64,000 nt of DNA from Fictibacillus nanhaiensis. GTDB lineage: Bacteria; Bacillota; Bacilli; Bacillales; Fictibacillaceae. The notes beneath the pieces are model-generated. The model saw nothing but the letters and a program-made list of their open reading frames with translations, did no database searches and was not told the origin of the DNA. Each line of letters starts with the position of its first letter. Positions within the stretch are counted from its first letter, which is position 1. A program made the translations under genes and the position numbers. Of this stretch, positions 3,412 to 60,042 are shown one piece after another. Location of the stretch: assembly GCA_016401345.1 (NCBI GenBank), contig JAEACG010000001.1, forward strand, positions 1,240,001-1,304,000, written 5' to 3'.

Positions 3412-3756
3412 CCATAACACTCCCTTTCAAAGAGGTTAAATATGCATTAGGTCTTACGGTTGTACCTCCATTATATTCATTTTGTCAGAAAAGTCAAAAA
3501 GTAATCGTCTGAATATATAATATACGGGTACATTTACTACTTGACGCAAATTGTGGCAAAGAAATTGTAACCCTACTTGGGAAGACTAGACATAACGATA
3601 AATTGATATAAAATTTATAGTAGAATACGTCTCATGACCTATGACAAATAAACCATAATATGGTAACCTCAATAAGGTGTCTTTCAAAACGTGTAAAACC
3701 TTTAAAAACGGGAATATGTTAGTTAGCTGATGATATAGATAAAGGAGTAGTTCGTA
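3412..3756. other. 345-bp spacer, no gene seen
   Basis: AT-rich divergent spacer between the small gene at 3411 and the PAP2 gene at 3757. It must hold both promoters, but I could not place either convincingly. TTGACG at 3541 has only a weak partner, and GTAAAACCTTT near 3690 resembles an ECF -35 box without a matching CGT -10 element. Confidence 0.5.
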
Positions 3757-15964: not shown

Positions 15965-15980
15965 AATACAAAAAGAGAAA

Positions 15981-16006
15981 GGAAACCGAAGTCGGTTTCC
16001 TTTTTT
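15981..16006 (+). terminator. Terminator of the GDSL-ABC operon
   Basis: GGAAACCGA and CGGTTTCC form the stem, followed by six T. Confidence 0.92.
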
Positions 16007-16034: not shown

Positions 16035-16160
16035 TAATCTGTCCGTTCTCGTAGTTAATCTGTCGGATTGATTCCTTAATCTGTCCGATTCAGAGGATAA
16101 TCTGTCCAATCGAGAAGATAATTTAGCCATTCGACACAATCATCTGTCCAATTGCAACTT
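16035..16160. repeat. 21-bp tandem array, family TAATCTGTCCGAT (six units)
   Basis: Anchors TAATCTGTCC or variants begin at 16035, 16056, 16077, 16098, 16119 and 16140, exactly 21 bp apart. The first 13 bases are conserved and the last 8 vary. The array fills the spacer between two converging genes and stops 3 bp before the chemoreceptor stop codon. The same unit, inverted, recurs at 36456-36540. Confidence 0.9.
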
Positions 16161-16163
16161 GTA

Positions 16164-18170
16164 CTAAATTTTAAAGTGTTTGATCATTTCAGTCAAAGCT
16201 TGTGAAGCATCGTTCAATTCTTCGGCTGACTGAGAAACCGTAGATAGTGCCCGAACTTGCTCTTCAGAAGACGCACTCACTTCTTCACTTGCCGCTGCAG
16301 ATTGTTCGGCTACGGCTGCGATACTTTGAATAGAAGCTACTACTTCCTCTTTATAGTTGTTGATCATCTCTACTTCACTCGTAATTTGTTCGATGGACTT
16401 CACCATATCTGCCATCGTACCTGAGATTTCGTTAAAAGCAGACTCTGTATCTGTTACGGTCATGTTTTGATCGTGAGCGATTCTTTTCGTATACGCCATC
16501 TCATTTACAGCACGCTCTGACTCTTCTCCTATTCCGGAGATCGTCTTACGGACTTTATCTGCAGCAATAGCAGATTGTTCCGCTAATTTTCGTACCTCAT
16601 CGGCAACGACCGCAAAACCACGCCCGCTCTCACCCGCTCTAGCAGCTTCAATACTTGCATTTAATGCGAGTAGATTGGTCTGATTCGAGATTTCAGTAAT
16701 CGATTGAATCACTTGTTCGATCTCTTCTACTTTAACAGCAAGTCCCGAAATGACAGATTCGATGTTTTTCAAAACCTGGTTGCTTTCTCCCGTTTTTTCA
16801 CGTAAGACGTCCATTTGTGAGATTCCTTTTTTGTTTGCAGCCTCAGCTAATAAAGACAATCGAGTCATCTCTTCTGCTTGTTCGTTTACTTTTTCGATCT
16901 GTAGAGATAAGTCCATCGTTCGACGGTTTGTTTCATCGGCATCTTCGGCTTGTGTTGTAGCACCAGAAGCAATCTCTCTGACAGCTCTAGAAACCTCTTC
17001 ACTTGCTGCGATCGTTTCTTCTGACACGGCACTCAAGTTAGAAGTAGATTCATTAACAGTTACAACAGAATGACTGACCGACGTAATCAGTCCCCGCATG
17101 TTTTCGACCATAGCGTTAAAATGATGAGTGAGTGTTCCCACTTCGTCTTTGGATTTTGCTTCAACAGAGACGGTAAGATCGCCTTCTGCTACTTTTTGTA
17201 CTTGTGTCTGTAATCTAGTAATCGGATTTGAAATACTTTTCGCCAATATATAGGTTACGCCTAATGCAACGATGACTGCTACCGACGTAAAGATGAGTAT
17301 CATATTTAATAGCTCTTCAGCATCTTTTAGTAGTTCTTTCTGGTCATAGACAAATCCAAGCTTCCAGTTCGTGTCGGCTATCGTCGTATAATAGAGCTCT
17401 CGGTCTTTATTCTGATAGGTATAGGAAACATTTCCTTTATCACTTTTGTATATTTCTTTAATAAAAGTCTCTTTACTTAAATCTTTTCCTTGTTGTGTCG
17501 GATGAACGAGTGCCATACCTTTTGGATCAAGAAGCACTGGATATCCTTTGTAGCTGACTTTAGTTTTATTAATCATGCTCGTTAGTCCAGCAAGATTCAG
17601 ATCAAGACCAACTACACCAAGAACCTCATCTGTTGCAGGATCTAACACCGGTTTCGTAACCGTTACAACATATTCACCAGAACTTGCATCTTCATATGGT
17701 TCTGTCCATATCGTCTTTTCTGGTGATTGTTTGGCCGTTTGATACCATGGGCGTTCAGTAGGATCGAACCCTTCTGGAAGCTCAAGTTTTGGAGTCGTTT
17801 TGAACTGTTTGGTTTCTGCACCTACGTATAAGACCGCAACGTTTTTATTGAGATCCAAAAAGTGCTTGAAGTCCTGATCTACAACCGGCCACGCTTCATT
17901 TAGACCTTTGACTTCTTCCGTTTTTAATGTTTTTAAATAATTGATAAGTCTGCTATCCTGGCTGTATCGATCGATCGTATTTCCATAAGATTTCAGATAC
18001 AGCTCTGTTGAGGCTTTAACTTCGCTTGAAAGACTTGTTGCTTGTTCGTTGCTGTTACTTTCAAGTTGTTGTTTTGTTTGAAAATAAGAAAATAGCGATA
18101 CAGACAAAAGTGTAATGGCAACTAGAATACTTACAGAAAGCATGATCTTCGTTTGAATTCTTTTAAACAT
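16164..18170 (-). CDS. Methyl-accepting chemotaxis protein
   Basis: 668 residues from the ATG at 18168-18170 (GGGGG 8 nt upstream). Order: membrane segment near 10-30, a periplasm-side dCache-type sensor domain (about 40-280, with [21 protein letters not shown]), a second membrane segment, HAMP, and the long coiled-coil signalling domain with the conserved hairpin tip ([18 protein letters not shown]). It would bind a small ligand outside and signal to CheA/CheW. Preceded by a sigma-D-type promoter, as expected for the flagellar regulon. The ligand is unknown. Confidence 0.95.
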
Positions 18171-33593: not shown

Positions 33594-33746
33594 ACCTCTC
33601 CAGTGACATGACGCTTACGGGGTTAGCTGTCGGATTAGGGATTGGAGTATCCCTTTTTGCAAATAGAGCAAAATTCACCCCAAAAGATTGGTTCCCCCGT
33701 TTTACAGTAGTTTTCACCATAAAAATAACTGTAAATTCAGCGATCT
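33594..33746 (-). ncRNA. ydaO/yuaA (c-di-AMP) riboswitch upstream of ktrAB
   Basis: The minus strand shows the conserved blocks in order: ATCGCTGAAT, a small hairpin (TTTACAG/CTGTAAA), ACGGGGGAACCAAT, TTGGGGTGAAT, AAAAGGGATA, CCGACAGCTAACC, CCGTAAGCGT and GGAGAGG. This is the ydaO-yuaA class, which binds two c-di-AMP molecules and turns genes off. In B. subtilis the same class controls ktrAB. The reading frame across it (33532-33720) is not a gene. Confidence 0.95.
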
Positions 33747-33830
33747 AAAGCCTGCTAAATTTTGAATTACATATACTGTAATCCTCTATCTTTTAAAAGT
33801 CAATCCATTTTTTTAGTGTTAACAAATACT

Positions 33831-36223: not shown

Positions 36224-36455
36224 GCACGTGCTCCTTTTTTACCAATCTTCTCTTTCTCTCTTTATTCCCTTCCCCATGTAATTAAAACAAAGGGCTCTTC
36301 TCTTTTTATACCATTTTTTCTTAGGGTTTGCAGAAATTACGACTGTTATGAAATTAGGTATTGTTTCAATCATTCGAAACGGTTTTTTTGTGTACGCATT
36401 GGGTTGATAGACAGACGCTTCGGAAATTTGCGTGGCCGATCGGTGGTGAATTTTG
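36224..36455. other. Spacer upstream of cls, no gene seen
   Basis: The 569-bp spacer between spoIIP and cls starts here. It should hold the cls promoter on the minus strand, which I could not place. The rest of the spacer is taken up by two repeat arrays and the spoIIP terminator. A reading frame at 36404-36658 is built from the repeats and lacks a ribosome site. Confidence 0.5.
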
Positions 36456-36540
36456 AATCGGACAGATTATTGGCTGGATCGGACAGATTATGTGACCAAT
36501 CCGACAGATTAATCTTCAAATCGGACGGATTCACTAGTCA
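36456..36540. repeat. 21-bp tandem array, family TAATCTGTCCGAT (inverted, four units)
   Basis: GACAGATTA anchors at 36461, 36482, 36503 and (variant GACGGATT) 36524, exactly 21 bp apart. Read on the minus strand the unit is TAATCTGTCCGAT, as in the array at 16035-16160; 15 bases, TAATCTGTCCGATTC, are identical between the two sites. Confidence 0.9.
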
Positions 36541-36600
36541 ATTTGAAAAAATACCGTCATTAACAAAACGGCGCCCATGCATAGACTCCTCTATAGCACT

Positions 36601-36726
36601 TACTGTCGACTTTGACGAAAATACTGTCCACTTTTTAAGTTTTACTGTCCACTTCTGATGATTTACTGTCCACTTTTGTAAGTTTACTGTCCACTCTGCT
36701 ATTTTTACTGTCCACTTTAATTTTCC
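36601..36726. repeat. 21-bp tandem array, family TTTACTGTCCACTT (six units)
   Basis: TACTGTC anchors at 36601, 36622, 36643, 36664, 36685 and 36706, exactly 21 bp apart. ACTGTCCACTT is nearly invariant (first unit ACTGTCGACTT); the remaining bases vary. It lies 60 bp from the previous array, which has a different unit. It ends about 20 bp before the spoIIP terminator. Confidence 0.92.
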
Positions 36727-36744: not shown

Positions 36745-36779
36745 AAAAAAGCTCCAGAGGTTATCACCACCTCTAGAGC
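36745..36779 (-). terminator. Terminator of spoIIP
   Basis: GCTCTAGAGGT and ACCTCTGGAGC pair (one mismatch) and are followed by six T on the minus strand. Confidence 0.93.
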
Positions 36780-36792
36780 CAGTCAACATTCT

Positions 36793-37944
36793 TTATTCAG
36801 CTTTCGCTCCATTTTCTTTCCAGTAGTACTCTGCCACCGCATCTGCCACCGCTTCTGCACTTCTATACAGCTCGTCCATGTTGTTATCCACTCCGCCAAA
36901 TTCAATAAGCAAAGCATGGTCAGAAAGGTCTTGATTATAAACACCATTTCCCTGAGTCTTGTTTTTTCCAATAACTCCACGACTTAAACCAGGGTATTTT
37001 TTATCTAAGATCGCGTTGATCTCTTGTGCTGCTTTTTGGTTCTTCTCAAAATTAGGATTCGCTTTACCGATAACGAATAAAGTACGCGCATAGGACTTAC
37101 CATTAATTTGTGTTGTTGTAGACTTTCCTCTCATAGAATCTCGATGCAGATCAAAGATTAAATCAATATCATTGTTGCTCGCCATCGCACTTTCAACTAG
37201 TGTACGTGACATCGGATAACTCTTTCGATAGTCTGTGTTATTTTTCCTCAAAAGCTCCGTCATATTTGTCATATCGACGGATGTACCGATTCCTCTCGCC
37301 TCTAATTCTTCCCCTAGCTTTTTCCCTACCATCGTGATGTTTACTTTAGAATGAATAGCATGATCAGGATTTGTTACTCCTTTTAGGTGAGGTAAGAACG
37401 ATTCCCAACTGTGCGAGTGATAGATATAAGCGATTTTCTTTCCACTCGTTGTTTGACCTGGTGGGTTCTCTGAATCAGATGGATCTGGATCTTCTAACCG
37501 CTCGATATCTTGAACTTCCGCTTCCTCACCACTTAATAGAAGTTCCATCGGTGGTGGTGACTCATACGCTAAGTTTGTATAATCCGTTCCTTCCCCAGCA
37601 ACAATGATTGTTGAATCATAGAGCGCAAAGCCAGGAAGTTCGTTTCCTAACAAACTTCGGATATCACCAGGTTTGATGCTTGTTGTTAATTCGAACAATA
37701 CACTAGATAACGCAGGCGGTTCACTTTCTTTTGGAAGCTCTTGCGTGAAATATCGGTTTTCCCAACCTATGAAATAGACAAGTGCTTCTCCAGAAAATTC
37801 CGTTAACCACTTATGCATGGTTGATGAACTCAATCGATATTTGTGTTCAAAGGATGTGATGAAGCTAGTGGCAACGACGATAAATAGCATGGCTCCAGCA
37901 AGTAATAATGGTAAACGCTTCATATTCAATTGCGGGGTGAACAT
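36793..37944 (-). CDS. spoIIP: Stage II sporulation protein P
   Basis: 383 residues from the ATG at 37942-37944 (GTGGAGGG upstream). N-terminal membrane anchor (LPLLLAGAMLFIVVATSFITSF), a variable acidic linker, then the amidase/endopeptidase domain with the zinc-site motif HSHSWES (176-182) and LIEFGGVDNN near the end. SpoIIP strips stem peptides and cleaves wall glycopeptide during engulfment, with SpoIID and SpoIIM. In many Bacilli gpr precedes spoIIP; it is not adjacent here. Sigma-E control is expected, but I did not find a clear promoter. Confidence 0.95.
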   Translation of the reverse strand: MFTPQLNMKRLPLLLAGAMLFIVVATSFITSFEHKYRLSSSTMHKWLTEFSGEALVYFIGWENRYFTQELPKESEPPALSSVLFELTTSIKPGDIRSLLGNELPGFALYDSTIIVAGEGTDYTNLAYESPPPMELLLSGEEAEVQDIERLEDPDPSDSENPPGQTTSGKKIAYIYHSHSWESFLPHLKGVTNPDHAIHSKVNITMVGKKLGEELEARGIGTSVDMTNMTELLRKNNTDYRKSYPMSRTLVESAMASNNDIDLIFDLHRDSMRGKSTTTQINGKSYARTLFVIGKANPNFEKNQKAAQEINAILDKKYPGLSRGVIGKNKTQGNGVYNQDLSDHALLIEFGGVDNNMDELYRSAEAVADAVAEYYWKENGAKAE

Positions 37945-38118
37945 GTATAGCCCTCCACTTCTGTTAACGTTTCTATCACATCCTATGCAGCTAATCATTT
38001 AAATAGAATCCAATCTATGAAAAAATAATAGAGACTTATCTTCGTTTGCTTACTAATGCTCTTTTTCTGAAGGTTTGTTTAGGAGTGACTCTTTAGGAAG
38101 GAATCGAGGTCTGTCCAT

Positions 38119-59642: not shown

Positions 59643-60042
59643 ACAGCATTCCTCACTTCTTTTATATCCGCCGTGCTTTTCTATTGCGGATGTTATCTTA
59701 TCGCCATTTTAATATATGTAGCCCCAAAAAGAAAATGGCATGTGAGTGATAATTGTTTGTTTATTCTGATTGAATTTCATGTTTCGTTGGGGTATGGATG
59801 AAAGTTTTAGTAATTTTAGTTCAGGGGTGACCTAAATAAACGTCATTTAGCTCATCGCAAGCAGTTTCTACTAATACCAATGGGGGTATAAGCCTATCTA
59901 ATTCTAGAAATTCATGAATTAAACCTAGAAATTCCGGACTTATTCCAGCGAGTTTTAGCAATAATCCGGCGAGTTTTGATCATTTATCGGCGAGATGGCA
60001 TAATTCGACAAACTCAAGACTCCATATACCCCCAACCTCAAC
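59643..60042. other. 400-bp spacer holding the murG-like promoter and a repeat array
   Basis: No gene. The start of the MurG-like gene lies at one end and the lpd terminator at the other. The middle is taken up by the 21-bp array described separately. Between 59643 and 59890 I see no clear promoter or RNA. Confidence 0.45.
59895..60020. repeat. 21-bp tandem array, family CTAGAAATT and CGGCGAGTTTT
   Basis: CTAGAAATT anchors at 59904 and 59925, then CGAG anchors at 59949, 59970 and 59991; spacing is 21 bp within each set. The two subfamilies share flanking AT-rich text and probably derive from one unit. It sits just upstream of the lpd terminator. Confidence 0.8.

Follow-up and report, generated by a model that had tools for sequence, protein, structure and literature searches.

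BOX elements, REP/BIME and MITEs are dispersed intergenic repeats of bacteria, and the arrays described here likewise occur as many modular intergenic copies with a variable number of units. The present arrays differ from all of these in being direct rather than palindromic, in keeping a pitch of 20-21 bp across unrelated motifs, and in the exchange of one motif family for another at the same slot. Transposon ends of the Mu/Tn7/Tn5053 type carry terminal arrays of binding sites, which are also tandem sites of about 20 bp and, like the composite element reported below, inverted at two ends, whereas most of the arrays here are single. The sites crtS and datA bind replication initiators on the chromosome; if the arrays were decoys for initiators, as considered below, they too would be initiator sites away from the origin, but crtS and datA are single loci with one motif and here there are many arrays with many motifs. 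The iterons of Rep_3 plasmids (PF01051/PF21205) are, like the arrays, tandem direct units of 20-22 bp with a conserved head, a variable tail and a lineage-specific motif; iterons adjoin the rep gene, whereas none was found among ten genes tested that flank the arrays, and the arrays occupy many loci per genome, behind terminators. The arrays do not show the full set of features that define any known kind that was tested; the occurrence of several related copies per genome, a feature of MITEs and other dispersed repeats, is found here too. A literature search, with most subscription journals and preprints outside its coverage, found no description of such arrays.

Arrays in the window

The window, that is, the whole 64-kb stretch of DNA that was analysed, contains at 16035-16160 (plus strand) an array of six units of the form TAATCTGTCCRATTnnnnnnn, referred to as family A. 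The units start at 16035, 16056, 16077, 16098, 16119 and 16140, so that every step measures precisely 21 bp; the last two units, 5 (TAATTTAGCC) and 6 (TCATCTGTCC), are degenerate. The array occupies the space between two convergent genes, one for an ABC permease and one for a chemotaxis receptor. A terminator-like hairpin (15978-16003) lies 3' of the permease gene before the array, and the array end at 16160 is 3 bases short of the reverse-strand receptor gene, which ends at 16164. The self-similarity observed in this 199-bp spacer was reached by none of 2000 two-base-block shuffles at any lag from 12 to 39. Both the six exactly spaced anchors and the position between converging genes, 3 bp from a gene end, were thus as given in the preliminary description, and the confirmed observation proved larger than was first described.

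An inverted array reported about 20 kb away (36456-36540) was found at 36449-36532 on the minus strand, with four A units in 21-bp steps. It forms the left half of a composite element, in which it is followed by a 66-bp spacer (36533-36598) and by a previously overlooked array at 36599-36724 (plus strand), whose six units (TTTACTGTCCACTTTnnnnnn) also repeat every 21 bp and have a different head, TTTACTGTCCACTTT (family B). The B array adjoins the terminator-like hairpin (36750-36780, minus strand) of spoIIP (gene 36793-37998), and the composite as a whole is a long imperfect inverted repeat. Parts of the spacer were found again in composites elsewhere and in named Fictibacillus genomes. Since composites at different loci have spacer pieces and unit order in common, whole elements must have been copied. 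A weaker array of another family, with the motif ATAATCCGGCGAGTTTT, also overlooked at first, lies between genes at 59932-60015 (plus strand) in 21-bp steps, with a hairpin and a T-run just downstream as judged by eye. A motif-blind scan, which scored self-similarity at lags 12 to 39, returned four intergenic arrays in the window, each with a lag of 21, besides two repeats in coding DNA with lags of 24 and 36. The sole Rfam match of the window at the gathering score was a c-di-AMP riboswitch (RF00379) at 33596-33752 on the minus strand.

Period and motif families in the genome

In the genome of the window, which belongs to the genus Fictibacillus, the pattern TAATCTGTCCGAT with at most one mismatch was found at 44 places against 4 for a reversed control pattern, and CTGTCC-N13..19-CTGTCC at 50 places against 1 for its reversed control; the spacing was exactly 21 bp in 48 of these 50 pairs (counted by eye). 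The motif-blind scan was also applied to a 400-kb sample of this genome, made up of 20 manually chosen, widely separated stretches, where intergenic matches numbered 7 at lag 21, 2 at lag 20 and 5 distributed among five further lags. A sample of the same size from G005, a Fictibacillus species with few CTGTCC arrays, gave 8 at lag 21, 5 at lag 20 and 1 at lag 19, two of the intergenic matches coming from the one of its 20 stretches that was selected to contain the spoIIP orthologue. Block-shuffled controls of the two samples gave 1 and 3 matches at any lag. An intergenic excess at 21 bp over shuffled sequence was therefore present in the window and in both samples. Coding matches of the scan were mostly at multiples of three. 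Extrapolation from 9 and 13 matches per 400 kb suggests that the number of arrays per genome may be on the order of a hundred.

Beside A and B, the heads found were AATCCACGAGTTT (C), GCTCAAA (D), GACTTATAAA (F), ATAATTCGGCGAG (G), GGCGCTCATAAAT (I), ACCGAACAAAAA (J) and CTCTATGCACCGAA (L). Across the window and the two 400-kb samples, a period of 20-21 bp was common to many unrelated heads. Of the view that a single motif repeats every 21 bp, the period was thus retained and the single motif given up.

Several known kinds of repeat do not fit the arrays. A CRISPR array would have longer, near-identical repeats with unique spacers, whereas these units are 21 bp with degenerate heads. A REP/BIME element has a palindromic unit; by eye, the A head forms no more than a short, imperfect dyad and the B head none. 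A protein-coding repeat would have a period that is a multiple of three in a kept frame, and several families have period 20. A CsrA-like hairpin was considered for the A head but abandoned, since the B head lacks a corresponding stem.

The preliminary description had also offered decayed peptide-coding sequences or RNA elements as possible origins. The equality of 21 bp with seven codons, the open frames that span some arrays and the long imperfect inverted repeat of the composite agree with such an origin. However, because several families have period 20, there is no fixed seven-codon frame, and the A unit contains TAA; folding was weak, with z-scores from -1.4 to -2.0, no Rfam match fell at the arrays, and the arrays lie behind terminators. 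Both origins are therefore less well supported than protein binding, and we regard them as highly improbable.

Sequence constraint on heads

Twenty A and B arrays of the genome of the window were compared with those of three other species. An orthologous stretch was available among those fetched for 46 of the 60 possible pairs; one mostly array-less pair was set aside and family-swapped slots were kept in, which left 45 pairs. Heads had diverged by 6.7% (173/2599) and tails by 22.0% (349/1583), compared with 14.0% (927/6598) in the 80-bp flanks and 11.0% (4820/43882) in the remaining, mostly coding DNA. The divergence of heads was thus roughly one third of that of tails. Aligned arrays contained 30 indels that measured 4 nt or longer, of which 22 were multiples of 21. 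Not every indel is independent, some being common to several species, and a number of the remaining eight fall at family-swapped slots. Since the relatives' stretches had been chosen at CTGTCC pairs, a choice that favours conserved arrays, the test was repeated at two slots located by the flanking protein only. At the permease slot (8 genomes), divergence was 6.3% (17/270) in the core, 9.2% (29/314) in the rest of the head and 29.1% (104/358) in the tail; in the B array at spoIIP (6 genomes), the corresponding values were 2.1% (4/192), 2.7% (6/224) and 16.9% (43/254).

The comparison of array length and sequence between species therefore revealed slow heads, fast tails and gain or loss of whole units. 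Purifying constraint on the heads together with whole-unit spacing would be the pattern expected of binding sites. Neutral satellites, generated by slippage or unequal crossing over, would explain why unit number differs between species and why recent 42-bp duplications are present. They do not account for heads that agree where tails differ, for heads being the slowest part of the alignment, or for the rarity of other intergenic periods, and we consider them very unlikely. The earlier suggestion that selection or a copying mechanism acts on the spacing, rather than simple slippage, is in line with these results.

Exchange of motifs at fixed slots

In 18 Fictibacillus genomes, the regions that follow spoIIP and the permease gene were compared. 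At the spoIIP slot an array followed the terminator in 16 of the 18, with four motif families: B plus A in 6 genomes, B alone in 1, GTGGATT (which is the C family on the opposite strand) in 8 and a 20-bp repeat of ATTTATGCTCGTTCGGAG in 1, with no array in the remaining 2. The permease slot held an array of one of two families in 12 genomes, plus one remnant: A in 9, an A remnant in 1, an A-like array in 1 more distant species, GCTCAAA in 2, and no array or another repeat in 5. A third slot, which carries a B array in the genome of the window, has an A array in G015 between preserved flanks. The presence of an array is thus kept at these slots while the motif changes, as judged by sequence comparison at a few slots rather than by a survey. 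Since relatives often keep an array in place with a different word, the arrays probably share one job. Preferential landing of repeats at favoured sites or beside terminators could mimic such slot conservation. In some species a longer dispersed repeat, with the GC-rich core GGGCAGGCGGTGAGCC or its complement, was seen in or near the same slots (L493, L364, L365, L339).

Genomic position and proposed role

Twenty-four arrays in gaps, including the window's four, were classified by the orientation of the flanking genes, after 7 of the 31 matches at lag 20-21 had been excluded as lying in coding DNA or outside gaps. Convergent gaps held 8, tandem gaps 14 and divergent gaps 2, where gap length would predict 3.6, 13.8 and 6.6, respectively. 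Terminator-like hairpins were enriched near the arrays: one lay within 110 bp of 15 of the 22 sampled arrays, compared with 14 of 33 random segments of convergent gaps, 29 of 127 of tandem gaps and 2 of 65 of divergent gaps. The A and B loci of the genome of the window had a nearby hairpin in 8 of 17 cases, which is about the convergent-gap rate and no more. The B arrays showed a polarity in 11 of 12 cases by eye, and in 5 of 6 unambiguous cases among nine B arrays detected by script; this bias is suggestive only.

Position behind terminators would also be expected of mobile, MITE-like repeats that land there, whose units would be recombinase or transposase sites and whose arrays would be copied whole. 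The spacer pieces and unit order common to composites at different loci, and the replacement of one family by another at one slot, would fit such mobility as well. However, fixed copies should decay evenly and the heads are slow, an inverted partner is absent for many arrays, and the ten array-flanking genes tested included no transposase and no Rep_3 gene. The Mu/Tn7-type transposase family PF09299 was detected in 9 of 36 genomes and was absent from the genome of the window and from most array-rich genomes tested. On balance, mobile repeats appear unlikely, although they are a serious rival to the reading preferred here. The more specific candidate of Mu/Tn7-type transposon ends was rejected, PF09299 being unrelated to array richness; the array-rich genomes G013, G015, G313 and G295 do carry it. 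Inverted arrays at two ends were seen in composites only.

Phased protein-binding sites, as already proposed in the preliminary description, are the best reading of the constrained heads and of spacing kept in whole units, and we tentatively favour a form of it in which the arrays would act as boundaries or roadblocks behind terminators. Each 20-21-bp unit would serve as a single binding site of a sequence-specific protein. A step of 21 bp corresponds to two helical turns, which would place the bound proteins on the same side of the helix and would allow cooperative binding. Given that the arrays sit at gene 3' ends by terminators and that their motifs are exchanged, what is kept may be a protein-covered stretch rather than one protein, and several proteins would then be involved. 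The most likely role of an array would be to keep transcription from leaking out of one transcription unit into the next. Points against this reading are that no binding protein was found, that a few arrays lie between divergent genes, that the A and B loci have hairpins nearby no more often than convergent gaps do, and that arrays are sparse in other families of the order. In a broader and more doubtful form of this proposal, Bacillales chromosomes may carry on the order of a hundred small, interchangeable arrays per genome as boundaries at fixed slots behind terminators, with each family served by its own protein and with slot and pitch kept in evolution while the motif is swapped; some of these proteins may be related to plasmid initiators, in which case the arrays would exclude plasmids as well.

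If the arrays are bound, they would constitute a protein-covered boundary layer at gene ends in some bacteria, of which no description was found in the literature searched. It is unusual for motifs to be exchanged while pitch and place stay constant, in that spacing and position would be selected while the sequence is negotiable. The question of insulation between neighbouring bacterial genes thereby becomes testable.

The same phasing would suit cooperative filaments of chromosome-structuring proteins, and the arrays might accordingly be nucleoid-organising or segregation sites placed in harmless gaps. Their spread around the chromosome, for example at 17 array loci in the single-contig genome G015, is compatible with this. 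Many motif families and a richness that is sporadic within genera are unlike a housekeeping protein, and we judge such a function to be distinctly unlikely.

Likeness to plasmid iterons

Among 72,556 plasmids, the sequences most similar to the B array were 22-bp repeats of Enterococcus (98 records) and Tetragenococcus (4 records), whose iterons have a head nearly identical to that of B. The closest plasmid unit had 17 letters in common with the array; BLAST significance is inflated when two tandem arrays are compared. In all three records opened of these 102, the repeats adjoin Rep_3 initiator genes. Degenerate 20-22-bp arrays with many motifs were found upstream in 17 of 19 Rep_3 plasmid regions of Bacillales, which had been chosen from match lists, and the chromosomal arrays are thus iteron-like in build. 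The period of the matching plasmid iterons is 22 as opposed to 21.

The likeness to iterons is a lead for the mechanism and no classification. It gives rise to a second testable idea, in which the arrays are chromosomal decoys that titrate or handcuff an incoming Rep_3 initiator and so exclude plasmids, the families following the plasmids met by each lineage. Such decoys would agree with the B matches beside Rep_3 genes and with the many-motif arrays of the Bacillales plasmid regions. They would also agree with two contigs of a viral collection (L191, L193), in which A-like AATCTGTCCACC repeats of 21-22 bp lie near Rep_3 genes; these are probably iterons of plasmid-like replicons. However, the six other families compared with plasmids (A, C, D, F, I and L) gave no iteron match or weak ones only, the best two of 54 plasmid matches of family F being without rep annotation. 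The iterons of the 19 plasmid regions had, by eye, no head in common with the chromosomal families. Rep_3 was found in 6 of 36 genomes, array-rich and array-poor alike and without relation to richness, and no PF01051 gene was detected in the genome of the window. Decoys would predict neither adjacency to terminators nor exchange at slots. We think them an improbable explanation, though a serious rival, and binding sites that would act as boundaries remain the reading that we prefer.

A phage collection queried with B returned 26 records, the best E-value being 0.4 among the 20 listed, and no array. Viral contigs with GTGGATT-type (one) and CGGCGAGT (two) patterns were, by eye, GC-rich or simple repeats unlike the arrays. 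On the Geobacillus plasmid L486, CRISPR-like repeats (GTTTCAATTCCTCATAGGTAAGATAAAAAC) were seen near a rep gene, around position 3582.

Distribution in other lineages

In 340 kb drawn from 17 genomes of other families within the order, the motif-blind scan gave 4 intergenic matches at lag 20-21 against 5 at other lags, and a lag scan of 100 kb of E. coli K-12 gave no intergenic array. The density of arrays therefore differs by lineage, and their role is not universal. Searches with TGTCC patterns, which covered 60 relatives as well as 397 genomes from the order, indicated many lineages with arrays, the counts including coding repeats and other periods. Richness varies strongly within a genus: in the 397-genome search, G176 had 218 TGTCC triples and nine congeners had between 0 and 4. 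A pattern scan of genome contigs matched at least 107 stretches, 80 of them individually listed. Among the part of the matches outside Bacillales that was inspected by eye, most were isolated pairs, repeats within coding DNA or GGGGACAGATTT-AAATCTGTCCCC palindromes, and these were not counted as arrays. At the loci from other phyla (393 kb), intergenic matches numbered 5 at lag 21 and 7 at all other lags combined; these loci had been pre-selected for a 21-bp pattern, so that the lag-21 count is no evidence of spread. The GGGGACAGATTT-AAATCTGTCCCC palindromes occur in several other phyla (L060, L067, L096, L154 and others) and are apparently unrelated to the arrays.

In G313 and G043, arrays were seen at many loci in which the types of unit follow a recurring order, with TGTCCGAAGTTTT repeats first, TGTCCGAACCAAATTTT next and further types after that. 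A single very long TGTCC array with dozens of units lies at G057:C15:87032-87849, and in Metabacillus mangrovi (L071, 3741-4595, minus strand) 32 TGTCC cores follow one another mostly in 21-bp steps and in some cases in 18-bp steps.
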